DNA of 64,000 nucleotides from Alphaproteobacteria bacterium (GTDB lineage: Bacteria > Pseudomonadota > Alphaproteobacteria > Geminicoccales > Geminicoccaceae), in assembly GCA_026982705.1 (NCBI GenBank), contig JALSGP010000012.1, forward strand, positions 62,001 through 126,000, written 5' to 3'. Every line of letters begins with the position of its first letter. Position 1 is the first letter of the stretch. The notes under the pieces are model-generated. The model did not search any database. It was not told the DNA's origin and saw only the letters and a program-made list of their open reading frames with translations. Below are positions 7,052-18,010 of the stretch, piece after piece. The position numbers were made by a program, and so were the translations under genes.

Positions 7052-8001
7052 TCGCGGGACTGCTGCGACGCCTCGTCGAAAGTCTGCTGGTGCTGCTGCT
7101 GGTCGCCTTCGCCAGCTACGCCCTGATCGGCCTGATGCCGGGCGACCCGGTGGACCTCATGATCGCCGCCGATCCCCGGCTCACCAGCGCCGACGTCGCC
7201 CGTCTCAGGGCCCTCCACGGTCTCGACCGGCCGCTGCTCGCCCGCTTCCTCGACTGGCTCGCGGCCGCCCTCGCCGGCGATCTCGGCCACTCCCGCCTCT
7301 ACGGCCGACCGGTGGCGGAGGTGCTGCCGCCGCGGCTCGCCGCCACCGCCCTCCTCATGGGCACGAGCCTGCTGCTGGCGCTGGCGGCGGCGGTGCCGGC
7401 CGGCATCCGGGCCGCCCTGCGCCCGGGCGGCCGCTTCGACGTCCTCGCCCATCTCCTCGCCTTCGCCGCCTTCTCCCTCCCCTCCTTCTGGCTCGCCATC
7501 CTGCTGGTGATCCTCTTCTCGGTGGTGCTGGGCTGGCTGCCGCCGGGGGGCGTGCCCACGGGACCGGCCGGTCTCCTCGACCAGCTCCGCCACATGGTGC
7601 TGCCGGTCCTCACCCTGACCCTCGCCACCTTCGGCGTCTTCTTCCGCTTCGTACGCCAGGCGGTGGCGGAGGTGCTGGCCGAGCCCTTCGTCGCCGCCGC
7701 CCGCGCCAAGGGCCTGTCCACCCGGCAGCTGGTCCGGCGCCACGTGCTGCCGGTGGCGCTGCCGCCGGTGGTGACGGTGACGGCGCTGCACTTCGGCGGG
7801 CTGCTGTCGGGCGCGCTGGTGGTGGAAACGGTGTTCGCCTGGCCCGGCACCGGACGGCTGCTCTACGAGGCCATCCTCGGCAACGACTTCAACCTGGCCC
7901 TCGCCGCCCTCCTCGTCGCCACCGCCGCCACCCTGCTGGCCAATCTGCTGGCGGACATCCTCCATGTCCGGCTCGATCCGCGCATCCGCGACGCCCTCTG
8001 A
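7048..8001 (+). CDS. ABC transporter permease, DppB/OppB family
   Basis: This 317-residue permease has six predicted membrane spans and the inner-membrane ABC signature (EAA loop) AAARAKGLSTRQLVRRHVLP. The N-terminal portion LLVAFASYALIGLMPGDPVD is characteristic of the DppB/OppB/NikB family that imports peptides, nickel chelates or related solutes. Its GTG start overlaps the purN stop by 4 bp. No binding protein or ATPase gene is nearby, so the substrate is open; partners must be encoded elsewhere. It is followed by a DppC-type gene overlapping it by 38 bp. Confidence 0.88.
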   Translation: MIAGLLRRLVESLLVLLLVAFASYALIGLMPGDPVDLMIAADPRLTSADVARLRALHGLDRPLLARFLDWLAAALAGDLGHSRLYGRPVAEVLPPRLAATALLMGTSLLLALAAAVPAGIRAALRPGGRFDVLAHLLAFAAFSLPSFWLAILLVILFSVVLGWLPPGGVPTGPAGLLDQLRHMVLPVLTLTLATFGVFFRFVRQAVAEVLAEPFVAAARAKGLSTRQLVRRHVLPVALPPVVTVTALHFGGLLSGALVVETVFAWPGTGRLLYEAILGNDFNLALAALLVATAATLLANLLADILHVRLDPRIRDAL

Positions 8002-8896
8002 CGCCCCGCGCGGCTTCCTCGCCCGCCTGTGGGCGCGGCCGCGGGCGCGGGTGGGCGGCGCGCTGCTGCTGCTCCTCCTCCTGGGCGCGCTCGCGGCGGA
8101 TCTGGCCGAGGCGGTGTGGGGCGGCGGCCCGGAGACGGTGGACCTGCTGGCCCGCCTGGAACCGCCGGGCCTCGCCCATCCCCTCGGCACCGACGAATTG
8201 GGGCGCGACGTGCTGGTGATGCTGCTGCACGCCGCCCGCACCTCGCTCGCGGTGGGCCTGGGCGGGGCGCTGCTGGCCTCCGCCCTGGGCACGCTGGTGG
8301 GTCTGCTCGCCGGCTGGTACGGCGGCCGGATCGACGCCTTCCTCATGCGTCTCACCGATACGGTGCTGGCGCTGCCGCTGCTGCCGGTCCTCGTCGTCCT
8401 CGCCGCCGTCGATCTCGGGCGGCTGGGGTTCGAGGGGACGGGCCCCCTCGCGAGCGCGCTCCGCATCGTGGTGATCGTGGCGCTGTTCGGCTGGCCCGCC
8501 ACCGCCCGCATCGCCCGCGCCGCCACCCTCACCCTCGCGCGACGGGAGTTCGTCCTCGCCGCCCGCGCGCTGGGCGCCTCCGACGGCCGCGTCCTCCGCT
8601 GCCACCTCCTCCCCAATCTCGCCGGGCCCGTCACCGTCGCCACCACCCTCGCCGTGGGCCAGGTGGTGCTGGCGGAATCGGTGCTGAGCTTCCTGGGGCT
8701 CGGCATCCAGCCGCCGCTGGCGAGCTGGGGGACGATGCTCACCCGCGCCCAGGAGCTGGTGTTCGAGGCGCCGCAGCAGGCCCTGTGGCCGGGGCTCGCC
8801 ATCTTCGCCGCCGTGCTGGGGGCCAATCTCCTCGGCGATGCCCTGGAGGAGACGCTGGACCCGCGCCGGCGCACCGGGACCCCGCCGACGCGTTGA
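7964..8896 (+). CDS. ABC transporter permease, DppC/OppC family
   Basis: The 310-residue protein is the natural partner of the preceding permease. It has the N-terminal cytosolic stretch and first helix of DppC proteins, the conserved HPLGTDELGRDVLVMLLHAAR segment and an EAA loop AARALGASDGRVLRCHLLPN. Six membrane spans are visible. The only plausible ATG (7964) lies 38 bp inside the upstream gene. Only 57 bp separate its stop from the glutamine-synthetase-like gene, so the permease pair could be part of the same transcript as the catabolic genes downstream. Confidence 0.88.
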   Translation: MSGSIRASATPSDAPRGFLARLWARPRARVGGALLLLLLLGALAADLAEAVWGGGPETVDLLARLEPPGLAHPLGTDELGRDVLVMLLHAARTSLAVGLGGALLASALGTLVGLLAGWYGGRIDAFLMRLTDTVLALPLLPVLVVLAAVDLGRLGFEGTGPLASALRIVVIVALFGWPATARIARAATLTLARREFVLAARALGASDGRVLRCHLLPNLAGPVTVATTLAVGQVVLAESVLSFLGLGIQPPLASWGTMLTRAQELVFEAPQQALWPGLAIFAAVLGANLLGDALEETLDPRRRTGTPPTR

Positions 8897-8953: not shown

Positions 8954-10315
8954 ATGACCCTCGGCCTCGACGAACTCCGCGAAGCCGTCGGCACCGGGGA
9001 GATCGACACCGTCCTGGCCTGCATGGTGGACATGCAGGGTCGACTCGTCGGCAAGCGCTTCGACGCCGAGTTCTTCCTCGAGCACGCGCGGGACGAGTTC
9101 CACGCCTGTGACTATCTGCTGGCCAACGACATGGACATGGAGCCGGTCCCCGGCTACGAGGTGACGAGCTGGGAGACCGGCTACGGCGATTTCGCCCTGC
9201 GCCCGGATCTCGCCACCCTGCGGCGGGTGCCGTGGCTTTCCGGCACCGCCCTCGTCCTCTGCGACGTCTGCGACCACCACGGCGAGGAGCTGCCCCACAG
9301 TCCGCGCGCGGTCCTCAAACGCCAGCTCGCCCGCCTGGCCGAACGGGGCATGATCGCCTTCTTCGCCTCCGAACTGGAGTTCTATCTGTTCGACCATTCC
9401 TACCGGGAGGCGTACGAGCGCGGCTACCGCGACCTGAAGCCGGCGGGCTACTACATCGAGGACTATCACATCCTCCAGACCACCCGCGAGGAGCCGGTGA
9501 TGCGGGCCATCCGCCTCGGCCTCAGAGGCGCCGGCATCCCGGTGGAGAACACCAAGGGCGAGTGGGGCCCCGGCCAGGAGGAGATCAACGTCCGCTACAC
9601 CGAGGCCCTGGCCATGGCCGACCGCCACGCCATCCTCAAGCACGCCTGCAAGGAGATCGCCGACCAGCACGGACGGGCGGTCACCTTCATGGCCAAATGG
9701 CGCTACGATCTGGCCGGCAATTCCTGTCACATCCACCACTCCGTCCGCGACGCCGCCGGCGGACGGCCGCTGTTCCACGATCCCGACGACGAACTGGGGA
9801 TGTCGTCGCTCATGAAGAGCTGGCTCGCCGGCCAGCTCCGCTATGCCCGCGAGATCACCTGGTTCCTCGCCCCCTACGTCAACTCCTACAAGCGCTTCCA
9901 GGTGGGCACCTTCGCCCCCACCCGCGTCTGCTGGAGCCGCGACAACCGGACCGCCGGCTTCCGGCTGGTGGGCGAGCGGACGCCCTCGGTGCGCATCGAG
10001 TGCCGCATCGGCGGTGCCGACCTCAACCCCTATCTCGCCTTCGCGGCGCTGATCGCGGCCGGCCTCAGGGGCGTCGAGGAGGGACTGGAGCTGGATCCGC
10101 CCTACGCGGGCAACGCCTACGAGGATCCGGCCCTGCCCGAGGTGCCCAAGACCCTGCGCGAGGCCGTGGCCCTCATGCGGGAGTCCGCACTGGTGCGGGA
10201 GATGCTCGGCGAGGTGGCCTTCCGCCACTACCTGCACACCGCCGAGTGGGAGCAGTTCGAGTACGATCGCCGCATCACCGACTGGGAGCTGTGGCGCGGC
10301 TTCGAACGGGCCTGA
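8954..10315 (+). CDS. Glutamine synthetase-like gamma-glutamyl-amine ligase
   Basis: A 453-residue member of the glutamine synthetase superfamily. It has MQGRLVGKRF near the N-terminus (PuuA-like), the metal and ATP site ASELEFYLF, GPGQEEINVRYTEAL, the GNSCHIHHS histidine segment and RIECRIGGADLNPYLA. These features match the PuuA, GlnA4 and IpuC group, which join glutamate to amines such as putrescine, ethanolamine or isopropylamine, better than housekeeping GlnA. It lacks the adenylylation Tyr loop in an obvious form. The ATG at 8954 is preceded by GGGGAGG. Position at the head of an aldehyde dehydrogenase, alcohol dehydrogenase and TRAP transporter set suggests it activates the imported amine; the substrate is inferred, not shown. 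Confidence 0.87.
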   Translation: MTLGLDELREAVGTGEIDTVLACMVDMQGRLVGKRFDAEFFLEHARDEFHACDYLLANDMDMEPVPGYEVTSWETGYGDFALRPDLATLRRVPWLSGTALVLCDVCDHHGEELPHSPRAVLKRQLARLAERGMIAFFASELEFYLFDHSYREAYERGYRDLKPAGYYIEDYHILQTTREEPVMRAIRLGLRGAGIPVENTKGEWGPGQEEINVRYTEALAMADRHAILKHACKEIADQHGRAVTFMAKWRYDLAGNSCHIHHSVRDAAGGRPLFHDPDDELGMSSLMKSWLAGQLRYAREITWFLAPYVNSYKRFQVGTFAPTRVCWSRDNRTAGFRLVGERTPSVRIECRIGGADLNPYLAFAALIAAGLRGVEEGLELDPPYAGNAYEDPALPEVPKTLREAVALMRESALVREMLGEVAFRHYLHTAEWEQFEYDRRITDWELWRGFERA

Positions 10316-10337
10316 GCGCCGGCAGGGGAGGCAGGTC

Positions 10338-11729
10338 ATGACCACCGTCCGCGTCGTCAGTCCCGCCGACGGCGCCGTCGTCGCCGAATACCCCCTCGCC
10401 ACCGACGCCGAGGTGGAGGCGGCGGTCGCGGCGGCGCAGCGGGCGCAGGCGGAATGGCGGCGGGTGCCGCTGGCGGAACGCCGGCGCCTCGTCGAGGCCT
10501 TCGTCGACGCCATGCTGGCCATGCGCGAGGAGATCGTGCCGGAGCTGGCCCGCTGCATGGGCCGGCCGGTGGCGGTGGGCGGCGGCGAGCTCGGCGGCTT
10601 CGAAGAACGCGCCCGCACCATGATCCGCCTCGCCGAGGAGGCGCTGGCGCCGGTGGTCCCGTCGCCCAGGCCCGGTTTCACCCGTTACGTGCGGCGCGAA
10701 CCGCTGGGGGTGGTGCTGGTGGTGGCCCCTTGGAACTACCCCTATCTCACCGCCGTCAACGCGGTGGTGCCGGCGCTGCTCGCCGGCAATGCGGTGATCC
10801 TCAAGCACGCCACTCAGACGCTGCCGGTGGGCGAGCGTTTCCGCATCGCCATGGAACGGGCGGGAGCACCTCCCGGCCTCTTCCACCACCTGATTCTCTC
10901 CCATGGCCAGGTGGAGCGGCTGCTGGCCGACCGGCGGGTGGATCACCTGGTTTTCACCGGTTCGGTGGAGGGCGGGCGCCATCTCGGCACGCTGGCCGCC
11001 CGCAGCCTGCTCGGCGCCAATCTCGAGCTGGGCGGCAAGGATCCGGCCTACGTGCGGCCGGACGTGGACCTGGACTTCGCCGCCGAACAGCTGGTGGACG
11101 GGGCCTTCTTCAACTCCGGCCAGAGCTGCTGCGCCATCGAGCGCATCTACGTCCATCGCGAGGTGTTCGACCCCTTCCTCGCACGCTTCCTCGAACGGGT
11201 GCGTCGCTACGTGCTGGGCGACCCCCTCGACCCCGCCACCACCCTCGGGCCGATGGTGAGTCGGCAGGCGGCGGACCGGGTGCGGGCCCAGATCCGCGAG
11301 GCGGTCGCCATGGGGGCGCGCACTCTCGTCGATCCGGCCGAGTTCCCGGCGGATACCGGCGATTCCGCCTATCTGGCGCCGCAGGTGCTGGTGGACGTGG
11401 ATCACCGCATGGCCATCATGCGCGAGGAGACCTTCGGCCCGGCGGTGGGGATCGCGCCGGTGGCGGACGACGAGGAGGCGGTGCGGCTCATGAACGACAG
11501 CCGCTACGGCCTCACCGCCGCCCTCTTCACCCGCGATGTCGCGGTGGCCGAGGCGCTGGGGGACCGGCTGGAGACCGGCACCGTCTTCCTCAATCGCTGC
11601 GACTATCTCGACCCCGAGCTGGCCTGGACCGGAGTCAAGGACTCGGGACGCGGCGCCAGCCTCTCGCGCATCGGCTACGAGCAGCTGACCCGCCCCAAGA
11701 GCTTCCACCTGCGCCACCATCCGGAGTGA
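10338..11729 (+). CDS. NAD(P)-dependent aldehyde dehydrogenase
   Basis: This 463-residue ALDH-superfamily enzyme oxidises an aldehyde to the acid. It shows the cofactor-site run VVAPWNYPY, FTGSVEGGR, the general base Glu230 in LELGGKDP, the catalytic Cys264 in NSGQSCCA and EETFGPAVG. Only 22 bp separate it from the ligase upstream (the ATG has AGGGGAGG in front) and 4 bp from the alcohol dehydrogenase downstream, so all three are one operon. In such company the likely substrate is an aldehyde made by the neighbouring alcohol dehydrogenase, possibly still carrying a gamma-glutamyl group. Specificity cannot be read from sequence alone. Confidence 0.92.
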   Translation: MTTVRVVSPADGAVVAEYPLATDAEVEAAVAAAQRAQAEWRRVPLAERRRLVEAFVDAMLAMREEIVPELARCMGRPVAVGGGELGGFEERARTMIRLAEEALAPVVPSPRPGFTRYVRREPLGVVLVVAPWNYPYLTAVNAVVPALLAGNAVILKHATQTLPVGERFRIAMERAGAPPGLFHHLILSHGQVERLLADRRVDHLVFTGSVEGGRHLGTLAARSLLGANLELGGKDPAYVRPDVDLDFAAEQLVDGAFFNSGQSCCAIERIYVHREVFDPFLARFLERVRRYVLGDPLDPATTLGPMVSRQAADRVRAQIREAVAMGARTLVDPAEFPADTGDSAYLAPQVLVDVDHRMAIMREETFGPAVGIAPVADDEEAVRLMNDSRYGLTAALFTRDVAVAEALGDRLETGTVFLNRCDYLDPELAWTGVKDSGRGASLSRIGYEQLTRPKSFHLRHHPE

Positions 11730-11733
11730 CGCC

Positions 11734-12894
11734 ATGCCGCCGCGCGCCGACTGGCACTATCCCACCCGCGTGCGCTTCGGGTGCGGCCGCATCGAGGAGC
11801 TGGGGGAGGCCTGCGCCGAGGCGGGCATCCGCCGGCCGCTGCTGGTCACCGACCGTGGCCTCGCCGCCGCCGCGCCGGTGGCACACGCCCGCCGCGCGCT
11901 GGAGGCGGCGGGGCTCCCCGTCGCCGTCTTCGCCGAGGTGGCGAGCGATCCCGACGAGGCGGTGCTGCGCGAGGGGATCGCCGCCTTCCGCGGGGCCGGC
12001 GCCGACGGCGTGGTGGCGGTGGGCGGCGGCAGCGCCCTCGACGTGGGCAAGCTCGTGGCCTTTCAGCAGGGCCAGCGGCGGCCGGTGTGGGACTTCGAGG
12101 ACGTGGGCGACAACTGGCGGAGGGCCGATGCCACCGCCATCGCGCCGGTGGTGGCGGTCCCCACCACCGCCGGCACCGGCTCGGAGGTGGGACGGGCGGC
12201 GGTGCTCGTGGACACCCGTGGCGACAAGCGCATTCTCTTCCATCCCCGCATGATGCCGCGGGCGGTGGTGGCCGACCCGGAGCTGACGGTGGGGCTGCCG
12301 CGTCCCCTCACCGTCGGCACCGGCATGGATGCCTTCGCCCACGCCTTCGAGGCCTACTGTGCGCCCGGCTTCCACCCGCTGGCCGACGGCATCGCCGTGG
12401 AGGGCATGCGCCTCGTGGCCACCGCCCTCGAGCGGGCGGCGTCGGTGCCCGACGATCTCGAGGCCCGCAGCCGCATGCTCGCCGCCTCCATCATGGGCGG
12501 CACCGCCTTCCAGAAGGGGCTGGGGGCCGTCCACGCCCTCTCCCATCCGCTGGGCGGGCGCTTCCACGTCCATCACGGCACCCTCAATGCCGTGCTCCTG
12601 CCCTACGTCGCCGTCTTCAACCGACCGGCGGTGGAGGAGCGGATCGCCCACCTCGCCGCCTGGCTCGGTCTGGAGGCACGCTTCGAGGCCTTTCTCGACT
12701 GGCTCCTGGACTTCCGCGCCCGTCTCGGCGTCCCCGCGGGCCTGCGGGAGCTGGGTCTGCCGGAGGATGCCGGCGAGGCGATCGCCGAGGCGGCGCTGCG
12801 CGATCCGTCGGCGGCCGGCAATCCGCGGCCGCTGCGCCGGGACGACGTGATCGCGCTCTATCGTCGTGCCTGGGCGGGAGATCCGCCACGGTGA
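11734..12894 (+). CDS. Iron-containing (group III) alcohol dehydrogenase
   Basis: The 386-residue protein belongs to the Fe-ADH family: the NAD-binding segment GGGSALDVGK, TTAGTGSEVGRAAV, and the metal ligands spread over DAFAHAFEAYCA and GAVHALSHPLGG with a further His in FHVHHGTLNAV. It interconverts an alcohol and aldehyde with a metal at the active site. It lies 4 bp after the aldehyde dehydrogenase and 23 bp before the TRAP small subunit, so a two-step alcohol to aldehyde to acid oxidation of the transported substrate is a natural reading. Fe-ADH enzymes also include glycerol dehydrogenase-like and maleylacetate reductase types, which remain alternatives. Confidence 0.9.
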   Translation: MPPRADWHYPTRVRFGCGRIEELGEACAEAGIRRPLLVTDRGLAAAAPVAHARRALEAAGLPVAVFAEVASDPDEAVLREGIAAFRGAGADGVVAVGGGSALDVGKLVAFQQGQRRPVWDFEDVGDNWRRADATAIAPVVAVPTTAGTGSEVGRAAVLVDTRGDKRILFHPRMMPRAVVADPELTVGLPRPLTVGTGMDAFAHAFEAYCAPGFHPLADGIAVEGMRLVATALERAASVPDDLEARSRMLAASIMGGTAFQKGLGAVHALSHPLGGRFHVHHGTLNAVLLPYVAVFNRPAVEERIAHLAAWLGLEARFEAFLDWLLDFRARLGVPAGLRELGLPEDAGEAIAEAALRDPSAAGNPRPLRRDDVIALYRRAWAGDPPR

Positions 12895-12917
12895 GACGGG
12901 ATCACGGCCGGGGAGGG

Positions 12918-13445
12918 ATGTGGACGGAGACGATGCCGGGGCCGATCCGCGCCTACGTGCGCTTCGTCGACGGTCTCAACCGGATCGTCGGCGTGTTCGC
13001 CATGTACATCTTCGTGTTCCTCATGGGCATGCTGCTCTACTCGTCGGCGACGCGGCTCGTCACCGGCACGAGCTACATCTGGGTCGTCGAGATGGCCCAG
13101 TTCACCATGGTGTCCTACTACATTCTCGGCGGCGCCCATTCGCTCCAGCTCGGATCCCACGTGCGCATGGACCTGTTTTACAGCCGCTGGTCCCCCCGCA
13201 CCCGCGCCGTGGTGGACGCCGTCACCATCCTTCTGGTCGTCGCCTATCTGGTGATGCTCATCCGCGGCGGGGTGGCCAGTACCCTCTATGCCTGGCAGTA
13301 CGGGCAGAAGAACTATTCCGCCTGGGCGCCGCCGCTGTGGCCGATCAAGTCCATCATGGTGATCGGCTTCGTGCTGATGCTGCTGCAGCTGGTGGCCACC
13401 TTCTTCAAGGACCTGGCGCGGGCGCGCGGGGAGAGCCTCGAATGA
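12918..13445 (+). CDS. dctQ: TRAP transporter small permease (DctQ-like)
   Basis: A 175-residue protein with four membrane spans and the DctQ-family layout, including WVVEMAQFTMVSYYILGGAH after the second span and a hydrophobic C-terminal helix. DctQ associates with DctM in a TRAP transporter and helps couple sodium-driven uptake. The ATG at 12918 is directly preceded by GGGGAGGG (12910-12917), which leaves little spacer, so an in-frame downstream ATG at 12933 is a possible alternative start. The stop overlaps the dctM start by 4 bp (ATGA). Confidence 0.9.
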   Translation: MWTETMPGPIRAYVRFVDGLNRIVGVFAMYIFVFLMGMLLYSSATRLVTGTSYIWVVEMAQFTMVSYYILGGAHSLQLGSHVRMDLFYSRWSPRTRAVVDAVTILLVVAYLVMLIRGGVASTLYAWQYGQKNYSAWAPPLWPIKSIMVIGFVLMLLQLVATFFKDLARARGESLE

Positions 13446-14761
13446 GCTACGAGGCCATCGCGCTCCTCATGTTCCTGTCGATGATGCTGCTGCTGGCCAC
13501 CGGCCAGCGGGTGTTCGGCATCATCGGCTTCGTCGGCGCCGTCTTCGCGCTGCTGCTGTGGGGCCGCGGCGGCGTGGAGATGCCCTTCAACGCCGCCTTC
13601 AATCTGGTCAACTGGTACGCGCTGGTGACGCTGCCGCTGTTCGTCTACATGGGCTACATGTTCGCCAACAGCGGCATCGCCGGCGATCTCTACCGGATGT
13701 TCCACGTCTGGTCGGGGCCGGTCCGCGGTGGCCTCGCCATGGGCACCATCCTCATGATGGTGGTGATCTCGGCCATCAACGGCCTCAGCGTGGCGGGCAT
13801 GGCCATCGGCGCCACCATCGCCATCCCCCAGATGCTGCGCCGCGGCTACGACAAGGTGATGATCACCGGCGTGGTCCAAGCCGGCTCCTCCCTGGGCATC
13901 CTGATCCCGCCCAGCGTGGTGATGGTGCTCTACGGCATGATCGCCCGTCAGCCGGTGGGCCATCTGTGGCTGGCGGGGGTGCTGCCGGGCCTGCTGCTGG
14001 CGAGCCTGTTCATCCTCTACATCGGCCTGCGCTGCTGGCTGCAGCCGCGCCTCGGTCCCGCCCTGCCGCCGGAGGAGCGGCGGATGCCGCTGCGCGAGAA
14101 GCTCAAGCTGCTGCGCGCCGGCATCAGCCCGCTGGTCATCTTCCTCGCCATGATGGGCTCCTTCTTCACCGGCGTCACCAGCCTCGTGGAGAGCGCGGCC
14201 CTCGGCGCACTGGCCACCACCATCGACGCCGCCGTCAAGCGCAAGCTCACCTTCGCCGTGTTCCACGAGACCCTGCGCAACACGCTGGCCGTCACCTGCA
14301 TGTTCATGTGGGTGATCACGGCGGCGCTGTGCTTCAGCGCGGTGTTCGACGGCCTCGGCGCCATCCGCGCCATCGAGCGCATCTTCCTCGGCTGGGATCT
14401 GGAGCCGTGGCAGGTGATCCTGATGATGCAGCTCTCCTACCTGCTGCTCGGCACCTTCCTGGACGACACGGCGATGCTGGTGATCGTGGCCCCCCTCTAC
14501 ATTCCCCTGGTGATCAAGCTCGGCTACGATCCCATCTGGTACGGAGTGCTCTACACCATCACCTGCCAGATCGCCTACATGACGCCGCCGTTCGGCTACA
14601 ATCTCTTCCTCATGCGGGCGATGGCGCCGCGGGAGATCACCCTGAGCGACATCTACCGTTCCATCTGGCCGTTCGTGATCCTCATGGTGATCGCCATGCT
14701 GATCGTGACGGCCTTTCCCGAGATCGCCCTCTGGCTGCCGGGTCAGGTCTACGGCCGCTGA
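13442..14761 (+). CDS. dctM: TRAP transporter large permease (DctM-like)
   Basis: This 439-residue protein carries about twelve hydrophobic spans typical of DctM, the ion-coupled transport subunit of TRAP systems. Family landmarks include LPLFVYMGYMFANSGIA, INGLSVAGMAIGATIAIPQM, SSLGILIPPSVVMVLYGMIA and TPPFGYNLFLMRA near the C-terminus. The start ATG overlaps the dctQ stop by 4 bp. The binding-protein gene follows after 158 bp, which contain no other gene and could hold a processing site or internal promoter allowing higher expression of the binding protein. Confidence 0.94.
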   Translation: MSYEAIALLMFLSMMLLLATGQRVFGIIGFVGAVFALLLWGRGGVEMPFNAAFNLVNWYALVTLPLFVYMGYMFANSGIAGDLYRMFHVWSGPVRGGLAMGTILMMVVISAINGLSVAGMAIGATIAIPQMLRRGYDKVMITGVVQAGSSLGILIPPSVVMVLYGMIARQPVGHLWLAGVLPGLLLASLFILYIGLRCWLQPRLGPALPPEERRMPLREKLKLLRAGISPLVIFLAMMGSFFTGVTSLVESAALGALATTIDAAVKRKLTFAVFHETLRNTLAVTCMFMWVITAALCFSAVFDGLGAIRAIERIFLGWDLEPWQVILMMQLSYLLLGTFLDDTAMLVIVAPLYIPLVIKLGYDPIWYGVLYTITCQIAYMTPPFGYNLFLMRAMAPREITLSDIYRSIWPFVILMVIAMLIVTAFPEIALWLPGQVYGR

Positions 14762-14919
14762 GGACGACGCACGGACCAGCGCGCGGGCTCCGCCCGGGGA
14801 GGTGAGGAGGACGAGGTGGGAGAGAAGGAGAACCGGCGAAACCCCGGACCGCGGCCGCGCCGATGCGGTTCCGGTCCGCGATCCGAACGACCATCGTGCA
14901 GCGGAGGAGGCTTTCCGTC

Positions 14920-16002
14920 ATGACCAGGAAGAAGGATCTCGCCGCCAAGAGGATCGCCAAACGCGACTTCCTGAAGACCGCAGGCGCCACGGTGGTGGGC
15001 GCGACCGCCGCCAGCAGCTTCCCGGCACCCCACGTCAAGGCCCAGCGCAAGATCCGCTGGCGGCTGCAGACGTACGCCGGCACCGCTCTCGGCCAGCACG
15101 TGATCAAACCCTCCATCGACGCCTTCAACAAGGCCGCCAACGGTGAGATGGAGATCGAGCTCTACTACGCCGACCAGCTGGTACCCCATCCGGAACTGTT
15201 CCGGGCGGTGCAGAACGGCACCATCGACGCGGCCCAGTCGGACGACGACTCCATCGGCGCGCCGGTGGACATCAAGGTGTTCGGCGCCTACTTCCCGCTG
15301 GCGGCCCGCTACAGCCTCGACGTGCCGGCACTGTGGCACTGGTACGGCCTCAAGGAGATCTGGGAGGAGGCGTACCGGGAGGTGCCGGGCGTGGTGTGGC
15401 TGTCCACCGGTGCCTGGGATCCCTGCAACTTCGCCACCACCAAGCCCGTCCGCTCGCTGGAGGACCTCAAGGGCCTGCGCGTCTACATGTTCCCGACCGT
15501 GGGCCAGTTCATGCAGCGCTTCGGCGTGATCCCGGTGTCGCTGCCCTACGAGGACGTGCAGGTGGCGATCCAGACCGGCGAGCTGGACGGCGTGGCCTGG
15601 TCCGGCATCACCGAGGTCTACACCGTGGGATGGGCGGACGTGACGAAATACTTCCTCACCAACCCCATCTCGGGTGCCTGGGCCGGATCGTACTTCGTCA
15701 ACGAGGAGCGCTGGAACGAGCTGCCGGAGCACCTCAAGCAGCTGTTCCTGCTCTGCATCGACAATTCCCACTACTACCGGCTGCACTGGTACTGGTGGGG
15801 CGAGGCCGAGTACCGGACCCGCGGCGGCAAGCTCGAGCTCACCACCATCCCCGACGAGGAATGGCGCATCGTCGAGGACGAGGCCTTCAAGTTCTGGGAC
15901 GAGATCGCCCAGACCAGCGAGCGCAATGCCCGGGTGGTGGAGATCATCAAGAAGTACATCAACACCATGCGCAAGGCGGGCTCGCCCTACCGCTGCGCCT
16001 GA
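14920..16002 (+). CDS. dctP: TRAP transporter substrate-binding protein (DctP-like)
   Basis: The 360-residue periplasmic protein binds the TRAP substrate. It starts at ATG 14920 with GGAGGAGG 9 bp upstream; an in-frame ATG at 14863 would add 19 residues with no ribosome site. The N-terminus KRDFLKTAGATVVG resembles a Tat signal (Lys-Arg instead of Arg-Arg), with cleavage near VKAQ. The DctP-family hinge reads LKGLRVYMFPT: where most members have Arg that salt-bridges a substrate carboxylate (LKGLKVRV pattern), this one has Tyr189. A tryptophan-rich region around HWYWWGEAEY follows. This suggests a non-carboxylate ligand, consistent with an amine or alcohol. Confidence 0.92.
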   Translation: MTRKKDLAAKRIAKRDFLKTAGATVVGATAASSFPAPHVKAQRKIRWRLQTYAGTALGQHVIKPSIDAFNKAANGEMEIELYYADQLVPHPELFRAVQNGTIDAAQSDDDSIGAPVDIKVFGAYFPLAARYSLDVPALWHWYGLKEIWEEAYREVPGVVWLSTGAWDPCNFATTKPVRSLEDLKGLRVYMFPTVGQFMQRFGVIPVSLPYEDVQVAIQTGELDGVAWSGITEVYTVGWADVTKYFLTNPISGAWAGSYFVNEERWNELPEHLKQLFLLCIDNSHYYRLHWYWWGEAEYRTRGGKLELTTIPDEEWRIVEDEAFKFWDEIAQTSERNARVVEIIKKYINTMRKAGSPYRCA

Positions 16003-16171: not shown

Positions 16172-16519
16172 TCAGAACAGGCGGGTACCGTCGGGGACCG
16201 GGCGGTCCGGGCCCACCAGCACCACCCGTCCCTCGGCGTCGGAGAGACCCAGCACCAGCACCTCCGAGACCACCCCGGCGACGCGGCGAGGCGGCAGGTT
16301 CACCACCGCGATCACCTGCCGTCCCACCAGCTCCTCCGGCCGGTAGAGATCGGTGATCCGGGCCGAGCTGGTCCGGGTCCCGATCTCCGGCCCGAAGTCG
16401 ACGGTGAGCACATAGGCGGGGTTGCGCGCCTTCGGGTTCGGACGCGCCTCGCGGATGGTGCCGCAGCGGATGTCCACCCGCTGGAAGTCCTCGACGGTGA
16501 TGGTCGGGGCCGCGCTCAT
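16172..16519 (-). CDS. csaA: CsaA-family tRNA-binding chaperone-like protein
   Basis: A 115-residue single OB-fold protein of the CsaA/EMAP-II-like tRNA-binding family: it reads ITVEDFQRVDIRCGTI at the N-terminus and ends with RQVIAVVNLPPRRVAG and VLVLG. CsaA is implicated in protein export and binds tRNA-like ligands; its physiological role in alphaproteobacteria is not settled. The ATG at 16519 overlaps the stop of the upstream TetR-like gene by 4 bp, so it is the last gene of the minus-strand run that begins at ubiK or the beta-lactamase-fold gene. Confidence 0.88.
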   Translation of the reverse strand: MSAAPTITVEDFQRVDIRCGTIREARPNPKARNPAYVLTVDFGPEIGTRTSSARITDLYRPEELVGRQVIAVVNLPPRRVAGVVSEVLVLGLSDAEGRVVLVGPDRPVPDGTRLF

Positions 16520-17154
16520 GCCGGTGCCCCCTCCTCCGCGGCGGCGGGACCGGGCCGACGCGGCGCCGCCGTTCCCTCCGCCGCCACCCCCACGAGCCGG
16601 GCGAGCCGCTCCACCCGCGCCAGCTCGCGGTCGAGGGTGGCGAGGGTGCGGGCGAGGTCCTCGCTCTCGTCCCCGAGCCAGGTCTCGAAGGTGCGGGCGT
16701 AGGCGCGGACGAGCGCCACCGTCAGCAGGCAGCGGCGCGGTCCCGCGACGGGCCATCCGGCGAGTTCCAGCCACCATTCGGCGGTCCGGTCCAGATTGCA
16801 CAGGGAGCGCAGGGCGAGCCGCGGGTCGCCGCGCAGTTCCCGGATCAGCCGGGCGAGGCCGGCGCGGAAGGGAGCCGCCGCGTCCAGCCGCCGCATGATC
16901 AGCTCGAACAGGCGCTCGCGCGCGCCGAGGGGGCCGAGCTCGGCCGGATCCAGATCCAGCATGGCGCGATCCAGCCGCCGCCCGAGCTCCGTCACCAGCG
17001 CCGCCCGGGTCGGCAGGGCCTCGTAGACGGCGGCGAGGGACACGCCGGCGCGCCGGGCCACCTCCGCCCGGTCGAGGCCGCGCACGCCGCGCTCGGCCAC
17101 CACCGCGAACGCCACCTCGAGCAGATCCGGCTCACGTGCCCGCGCCCTCGCCAT
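16516..17154 (-). CDS. TetR-family transcriptional regulator
   Basis: This 212-residue protein has an N-terminal helix-turn-helix of TetR type (LDRAEVARRAGVSLAAVYEA, roughly residues 26-45) and an alpha-helical C-terminal ligand or dimer domain. The C-terminal part resembles TetR members whose domain is similar to COQ9-like helical bundles. The ATG at 17154 lies 23 bp inside the end of proC, and its stop overlaps csaA by 4 bp. A regulator embedded between proC and csaA may control its own operon, but no palindromic operator was found nearby. Confidence 0.82.
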   Translation of the reverse strand: MARARAREPDLLEVAFAVVAERGVRGLDRAEVARRAGVSLAAVYEALPTRAALVTELGRRLDRAMLDLDPAELGPLGARERLFELIMRRLDAAAPFRAGLARLIRELRGDPRLALRSLCNLDRTAEWWLELAGWPVAGPRRCLLTVALVRAYARTFETWLGDESEDLARTLATLDRELARVERLARLVGVAAEGTAAPRRPGPAAAEEGAPA

Positions 17155-18010
17155 CGCCTTCTCTCCCCCGACCGTTCCCCTCCTCGCCGGCCAGCTCGCG
17201 CGAACGCCGTGCCGCCGCCGCCACCGCCTCCGCCAGCAGATCCACGAGACCGCCCTCGCGCCGGAGCACGCCCAGTGCCGCCTCGGTGGTGCCGCCGGGG
17301 CTGGTGACGCCGCGGCGGAGGGCGGCGGCGTCCTCCCCGCTCTCCAGGAGCAGCCGGCCGGCACCGGCCACCGTGTGGCGCGCGAGGGTGGTGGCGAGAT
17401 CCGCATCGAGGCCGAGCCGCCGCCCCGCCTCCGTCAGCGCCTCCACCAGCAGGAACACGTAGGCGGGACCGCTGCCCGAGACGGCGGTGACGGCGTGCAT
17501 GGCGTCCTCGTTCTCGATCCAGGCCACCTCGCCCACCGCCCGCATGAGCCCGGCGGCCGCCGTCCGCACCTCCGGCGGCGTGCCGGCCGGCGCGTAGAGC
17601 ACCGTCATGCCGGCGCCGACGGCGGCGGGCGTGTTGGGCATGGTGCGCACCACCACCGTCTCCGCCCCCAGCGCTCGGGTGAAGGCCGCCACCGGCTTGC
17701 CGGCGACGATGGAGAGGACGAAGCGGCTCCGCGCCGCCACCGGCCGCCAGGCCGGCAGGATCCCGTCCAGCACCTGCGGCTTGACGGCGAAGACCAGGGC
17801 CGCCGGCGCGAGATCCGCCGGGATCTCCGCCACGCCGGCCACGATCCGCGCCCCGGGCGCGCGCGCGCCCAGCACCCGCCGGCGGGTCGCATCCGGCTCC
17901 ACCACCCAGGCCTCGCCGGCGGAAAGCCCTCGCGCCAGCCAGCCCTCGAGGAGGGCCGCGCCCATGCGGCCGCCGCCCACCAGCACCAGCGGATGGACGG
18001 GTGCGCTCAC
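17132..18010 (-). CDS. proC: Pyrroline-5-carboxylate reductase
   Basis: ProC reduces pyrroline-5-carboxylate to proline with NAD(P)H. The 292-residue protein has the Rossmann motif LVGGGRMGAALLEGWLARG, FAVKPQVLDGIL, VRTMPNTPAAVGAG and the C-terminal family signature AVSGSGPAYVFLLVEAL plus GVTSPGGTTEAAL. It begins with GTG 2 bp after the stop of the YbjN-like gene. The C-terminus has about 20 extra Gly/Arg/Glu-rich residues, the coding sequence of which overlaps the next gene. Confidence 0.94.
   Translation of the reverse strand: MSAPVHPLVLVGGGRMGAALLEGWLARGLSAGEAWVVEPDATRRRVLGARAPGARIVAGVAEIPADLAPAALVFAVKPQVLDGILPAWRPVAARSRFVLSIVAGKPVAAFTRALGAETVVVRTMPNTPAAVGAGMTVLYAPAGTPPEVRTAAAGLMRAVGEVAWIENEDAMHAVTAVSGSGPAYVFLLVEALTEAGRRLGLDADLATTLARHTVAGAGRLLLESGEDAAALRRGVTSPGGTTEAALGVLRREGGLVDLLAEAVAAAARRSRELAGEEGNGRGREGDGEGAGT

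Follow-up and report, generated by a model that had tools for sequence, protein, structure and literature searches.

Organization of the Locus

The window, i.e., the whole stretch of 64,000 nucleotides analyzed here, carries on its plus strand, at positions 8954–16002, six intact genes that combine an amide-forming ligase with two dehydrogenases and a TRAP transporter (Table 1). The question is which compound such a set imports and degrades. Comparison with characterized relatives indicates that the locus is very probably an ethanolamine utilization operon of the known EtoVWX/gamma-glutamylation type.

Table 1. Genes of the putative ethanolamine utilization operon in the window.
Feature	Positions	Strand	Evidence
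Glutamine-synthetase-fold ligase, 453 aa, predicted ethanolamine gamma-glutamyl ligase (ETAGA-like)	8954–10315	+	PF00120, 323 bits
Aldehyde dehydrogenase (ALDH), predicted gamma-glutamyl-aminoacetaldehyde dehydrogenase	10338–11729	+	PF00171, 419 bits; ELGGKDP and GQSC motifs; ligase linkage in relatives
Iron-type alcohol dehydrogenase (Fe-ADH), predicted gamma-glutamylethanolamide dehydrogenase	11734–12894	+	PF00465, PF25137; metal-binding motifs; linkage in relatives
TRAP small permease DctQ (EtoV-like)	12918–13445	+	PF04290, 83 bits
TRAP large permease DctM (EtoW-like)	13442–14761	+	PF06808, 228 bits
TRAP substrate-binding protein DctP (EtoX-like), predicted ethanolamine binder	14920–16002	+	Csal_0678, 64% identity; start moved from 14863

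The initial annotation had described a ligase, an ALDH, an Fe-ADH, and a full TRAP system running in one direction with gaps of 4–23 bp up to dctM, and this description holds. The gaps are 22 bp (ligase–ALDH), 4 bp (ALDH–ADH), and 23 bp (ADH–DctQ), followed by a 4-bp overlap of DctQ and DctM. The catalytic motifs of the ALDH are kept, and the metal-binding motifs of the Fe-ADH read MDAFAHAFE and HALSHPLGGRFHVHHG. DctP likely starts at the ATG at 14920 rather than at 14863, since a GGAGGAGG site precedes this codon by about 10 nt and the L019 homologue begins at the same point; the spacer between DctM and DctP is therefore about 158 bp. An RNA-structure check of this spacer gave no signal (z +1.2), and the promoter and terminator scans returned nothing exceeding chance level. 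The GC content of the operon is 69.3% vs. 73.4% for the whole window.

DctP and Its Predicted Ligand

The best solved relatives of DctP are PDB entries 4uab and 4xf5 (E 1e-143), both of Csal_0678 from Chromohalobacter salexigens, to which it is 64% identical over 321 aligned residues. The crystal structure of Csal_0678 (PDB 4UAB) holds bound ethanolamine (PMC12410723), so the ethanolamine-binding TRAP protein that the initial annotation had mentioned does exist. For EtoX, a Kd of 7.9 μM for ethanolamine is quoted in PMC10132767 after Vetting 2015. TRAP binding proteins normally grip the carboxylate of their ligands with an arginine, Arg147 in SiaP, and this residue is missing from Csal_0678 (PMC4646407). 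In the equivalent column, the position of which was assigned by motif, the window DctP has Tyr, and all 85 of the 85 aligned sequences have F or Y. The Glu251 column is invariant in the same 85 sequences; by an inferred numbering offset, this residue is probably the equivalent of the ligand-binding Glu220. DctP combines two marks of an EtoX-type protein, namely closeness to Csal_0678 and the replacement of Arg147 with retention of the Glu. Ethanolamine is its predicted ligand.

Identity of the Ligase

The best PDB matches of the ligase are 11zs and 5dm3, the latter of which we take to be Csal_0679. In a tree of 93 rows, the window ligase lies inside the clade of TRAP-linked ligases together with 5dm3 and 11zs (support 100/96), and not among the stand-alone ligases that occur elsewhere in its bacterial family. 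Its earlier label, “PuuA/GlnA4-type”, is sound as an analogy only: the protein scores 191 bits against the 650 required by the PuuA cut-off NF045547 and belongs to a separate family of its own. Its scores are also too low for the curated cut-offs of GlnA and type III glutamine synthetase (GS). The FDGSS ammonium-site motif is lacking in the window ligase and present in the separate canonical GlnA of the same genome. The enzyme is predicted to be a gamma-glutamyl ligase acting on ethanolamine.

The stand-alone ligases of the same bacterial family (L158, L160–L165, L168) are about 58–63% identical to the window ligase. They form separate clades and have no ALDH, ADH, or TRAP genes within the fetched stretch.

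Comparison with Known Systems

The pathway is already known elsewhere, and the window locus is a variant of it in gene order and in hydrolase and regulator content. In Phaeobacter sp. MED193, the order is RpiR, gamma-glutamylglycine amidohydrolase, EtoV, EtoW, EtoX, ethanolamine gamma-glutamylase, and two dehydrogenases; during growth on phosphoethanolamine the hydrolase, EtoX, the ligase, and both dehydrogenases become more abundant (PMC10132767). For C. salexigens and Agrobacterium, the same paper names Vetting et al. 2015 as the source of the pathway. The window locus shares six functions with the EtoVWX-ETAGA-GAADDH-GETADH set of MED193: three TRAP parts, the ligase, the ALDH, and the alcohol dehydrogenase. 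However, MED193 has RpiR and the amidohydrolase, then the TRAP genes, then the enzymes, whereas in the window the enzymes come first and neither hydrolase nor RpiR is present. With the C. salexigens pair Csal_0678/Csal_0679, the locus shares a 64% identical DctP and a ligase of the 5dm3 clade, although the lineage differs.

GlnA4 of Streptomyces coelicolor (SCO1613), a GS-like gamma-glutamylethanolamide synthetase, gamma-glutamylates ethanolamine as the first step of its utilization (PMC6529630). This opening step is what the GlnA4 pathway, likened here by its description, has in common with the window locus. The Puu pathway (PuuA, PuuB, PuuC, PuuD) likewise gamma-glutamylates its substrate, oxidizes the product, and ends with a hydrolysis, but this substrate is putrescine, and the window ligase falls far under the PuuA cut-off. 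We know of no TRAP transporter linked to the GlnA4 pathway.

Proposed Pathway

We infer the substrate, the enzyme activities, and the order of steps from homology. Ethanolamine would be taken up by the TRAP transporter and converted by the ligase, at the expense of ATP and glutamate, to gamma-glutamylethanolamide. The Fe-ADH would oxidize the alcohol of this amide to the aldehyde, and the ALDH would oxidize the aldehyde to gamma-glutamylglycine. A hydrolase encoded elsewhere may then release glutamate and glycine, and the glycine could feed the glycine cleavage system, the GcvP of which is encoded in the genome. A chain of this kind (ethanolamine uptake by the TRAP system, its gamma-glutamylation, two rounds of oxidation, and a hydrolase elsewhere) was already proposed in the initial annotation and, with function assigned by homology, agrees with the published Phaeobacter/Chromohalobacter/Agrobacterium pathway (PMC10132767). 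EutB, the mark of the Eut ammonia-lyase route, is absent: the genome, 99.66% complete, has no PF06751 match.

Gene Neighborhoods in Relatives

A scan of the genome collection gave 498 DctP relatives, the best 80 of which made up the neighborhood sample. The window type of ligase lies near DctP in 40 of the best 80 loci, and in 39 an ALDH was also detected; with 39 of the 80 having both, the gene grouping is not due to chance. Six loci, mostly gammaproteobacterial, have a different ligase (~35% identity). No ligase is seen in the fetched stretch of the remaining 34, including 12 short stretches, and the transporter may therefore feed other routes as well. Of the 40 loci, 39 have the ligase downstream of DctP; the lone exception, L019 (G002), belongs to the same genus as the window, where the enzymes likewise precede the transporter.

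The nearest relatives among the best 80 of 498 include HRbin39 and HRbin40, which we take to be genomes from geothermal streams. The window locus extends the known ethanolamine pathway to a lineage with hot-spring genomes among its near relatives. In L096, a Desulfobacterales MAG, the EtoX-type TRAP genes adjoin a gene of the choline/ethanolamine kinase family, which favors the ethanolamine reading. In L046, L081, and L093, the fetched stretch has such TRAP genes next to genes for aldehyde dehydrogenases and contains no ligase; in L093 a TehA-like (SLAC1) gene lies between the two. The L044 record is titled Bacillus subtilis, yet its operon ligase groups within Brucellaceae; this assembly is probably mislabeled or contaminated.

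Alternative Explanations

The same reaction steps would suit any primary amino alcohol, so that the true substrate might be another small one, such as L-alaninol or 1-amino-2-propanol, or an amine like isopropylamine handled in the manner of the IpuC pathway, with ethanolamine being minor. The second Csal_0678 structure, 4xf5, presumably contains 2-amino-1-propanol, although alaninol in a crystal is no proof of use. Ethanolamine is bound by the homologue for which binding was measured, and its release from phosphoethanolamine induces the homologous operon (PMC10132767), so such a substrate appears improbable.

It is very hard to see the ligase as a regular glutamine synthetase, or as a ligase for polyamines, with unrelated neighbors. 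Weak matches to the type III GS and PuuA models are in line with that reading, but the genome encodes a canonical GlnA elsewhere, as well as a PuuD-ligase-aminotransferase cluster at another site, the window ligase lacks the FDGSS motif of GlnA, and its linkage with the TRAP, ALDH, and ADH genes is conserved. That the transporter imports a carboxylate while the ligase group plays a separate role is scarcely credible. Most TRAP transporters do carry carboxylates, and in several Geminicoccaceae relatives the TRAP genes adjoin other aldehyde dehydrogenases; against this, the aromatic residue in place of Arg147 and the invariant Glu recur throughout the DctP alignment. Ethanolamine utilization through gamma-glutamylation is the preferred reading.

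Hydrolase and Regulator

The features that characterize the operon type are found in part. The ligase, ALDH, and Fe-ADH stand beside the TRAP genes and the ligase falls in the TRAP-linked clade, but the linked FGase-family hydrolase and the RpiR regulator are both absent from the window locus. The hydrolase is linked in 36 of the 38 ligase loci with stretches of at least 13 kb and missing from L019 and L098; linkage of the hydrolase and RpiR is common in relatives and not universal. Because neither FGase nor RpiR was found in the six different-ligase loci either, the pair is not a strict criterion for the operon.

The genome has two FGase-family genes, on contigs C27 (at 10080) and C12 (at 193859). 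The view of the C27 gene, the nearest homologue in this genome, as the relocated operon hydrolase is unsupported: its clade is common to most of the family and stands apart from the operon hydrolases. The C12 protein resembles HutG with a score below the cut-off. The only RpiR-type match in the genome is on a different contig, and one GGT is encoded on C33 (at 242785). On C27 (L101, G000, ~150000–153600), genes for a PuuD-like hydrolase, a GS-like ligase, and a class III aminotransferase lie in a row, probably representing a separate polyamine pathway. This PuuD-like hydrolase (C27, at 150082) is one candidate for the last hydrolysis step, alongside the two FGase-family proteins and the GGT.

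Among the different-ligase loci, L058 and L066 have a nearby homologue of the PuuD-like protein of the window genome (40–42% identity), and L056, L087, and L097 have a small downstream protein resembling, by eye only, a class-I amidotransferase. As these loci do without FGase and several have other candidate hydrolases, the hydrolase appears to be replaceable. A tentative and rather doubtful extension is that the genus lost the pathway's own hydrolase and regulator and finishes with the hydrolase of the PuuD-like cluster, one enzyme then serving both ethanolamine and polyamine breakdown.

The ethanolamine pathway matters for the recycling of membrane lipid head groups. The window locus suggests that the operon tolerates rearrangement as well as replacement of its hydrolase gene. 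The general picture is unchanged: this is an ordinary, well-supported member of the pathway with a local rearrangement.

Genomic Surroundings

At 7060–8896 of the window, a pair of DppB/DppC-type ABC permease genes follows purN, with no binding-protein or ATPase gene noticed alongside. These permeases, 57 bp upstream, were rejected as part of the operon: the order purN-dppB-dppC occurs in relatives without the operon (L202, L203), and cutA comes after dppC in L203 and L204. For the same reason, the operon was probably acquired at, or relocated to, this site. On the other side, at 16172–17157 of the minus strand, genes for a CsaA-like tRNA-binding protein and a weakly TetR-like protein run convergently to the operon, and similar genes occupy the same place in L019.
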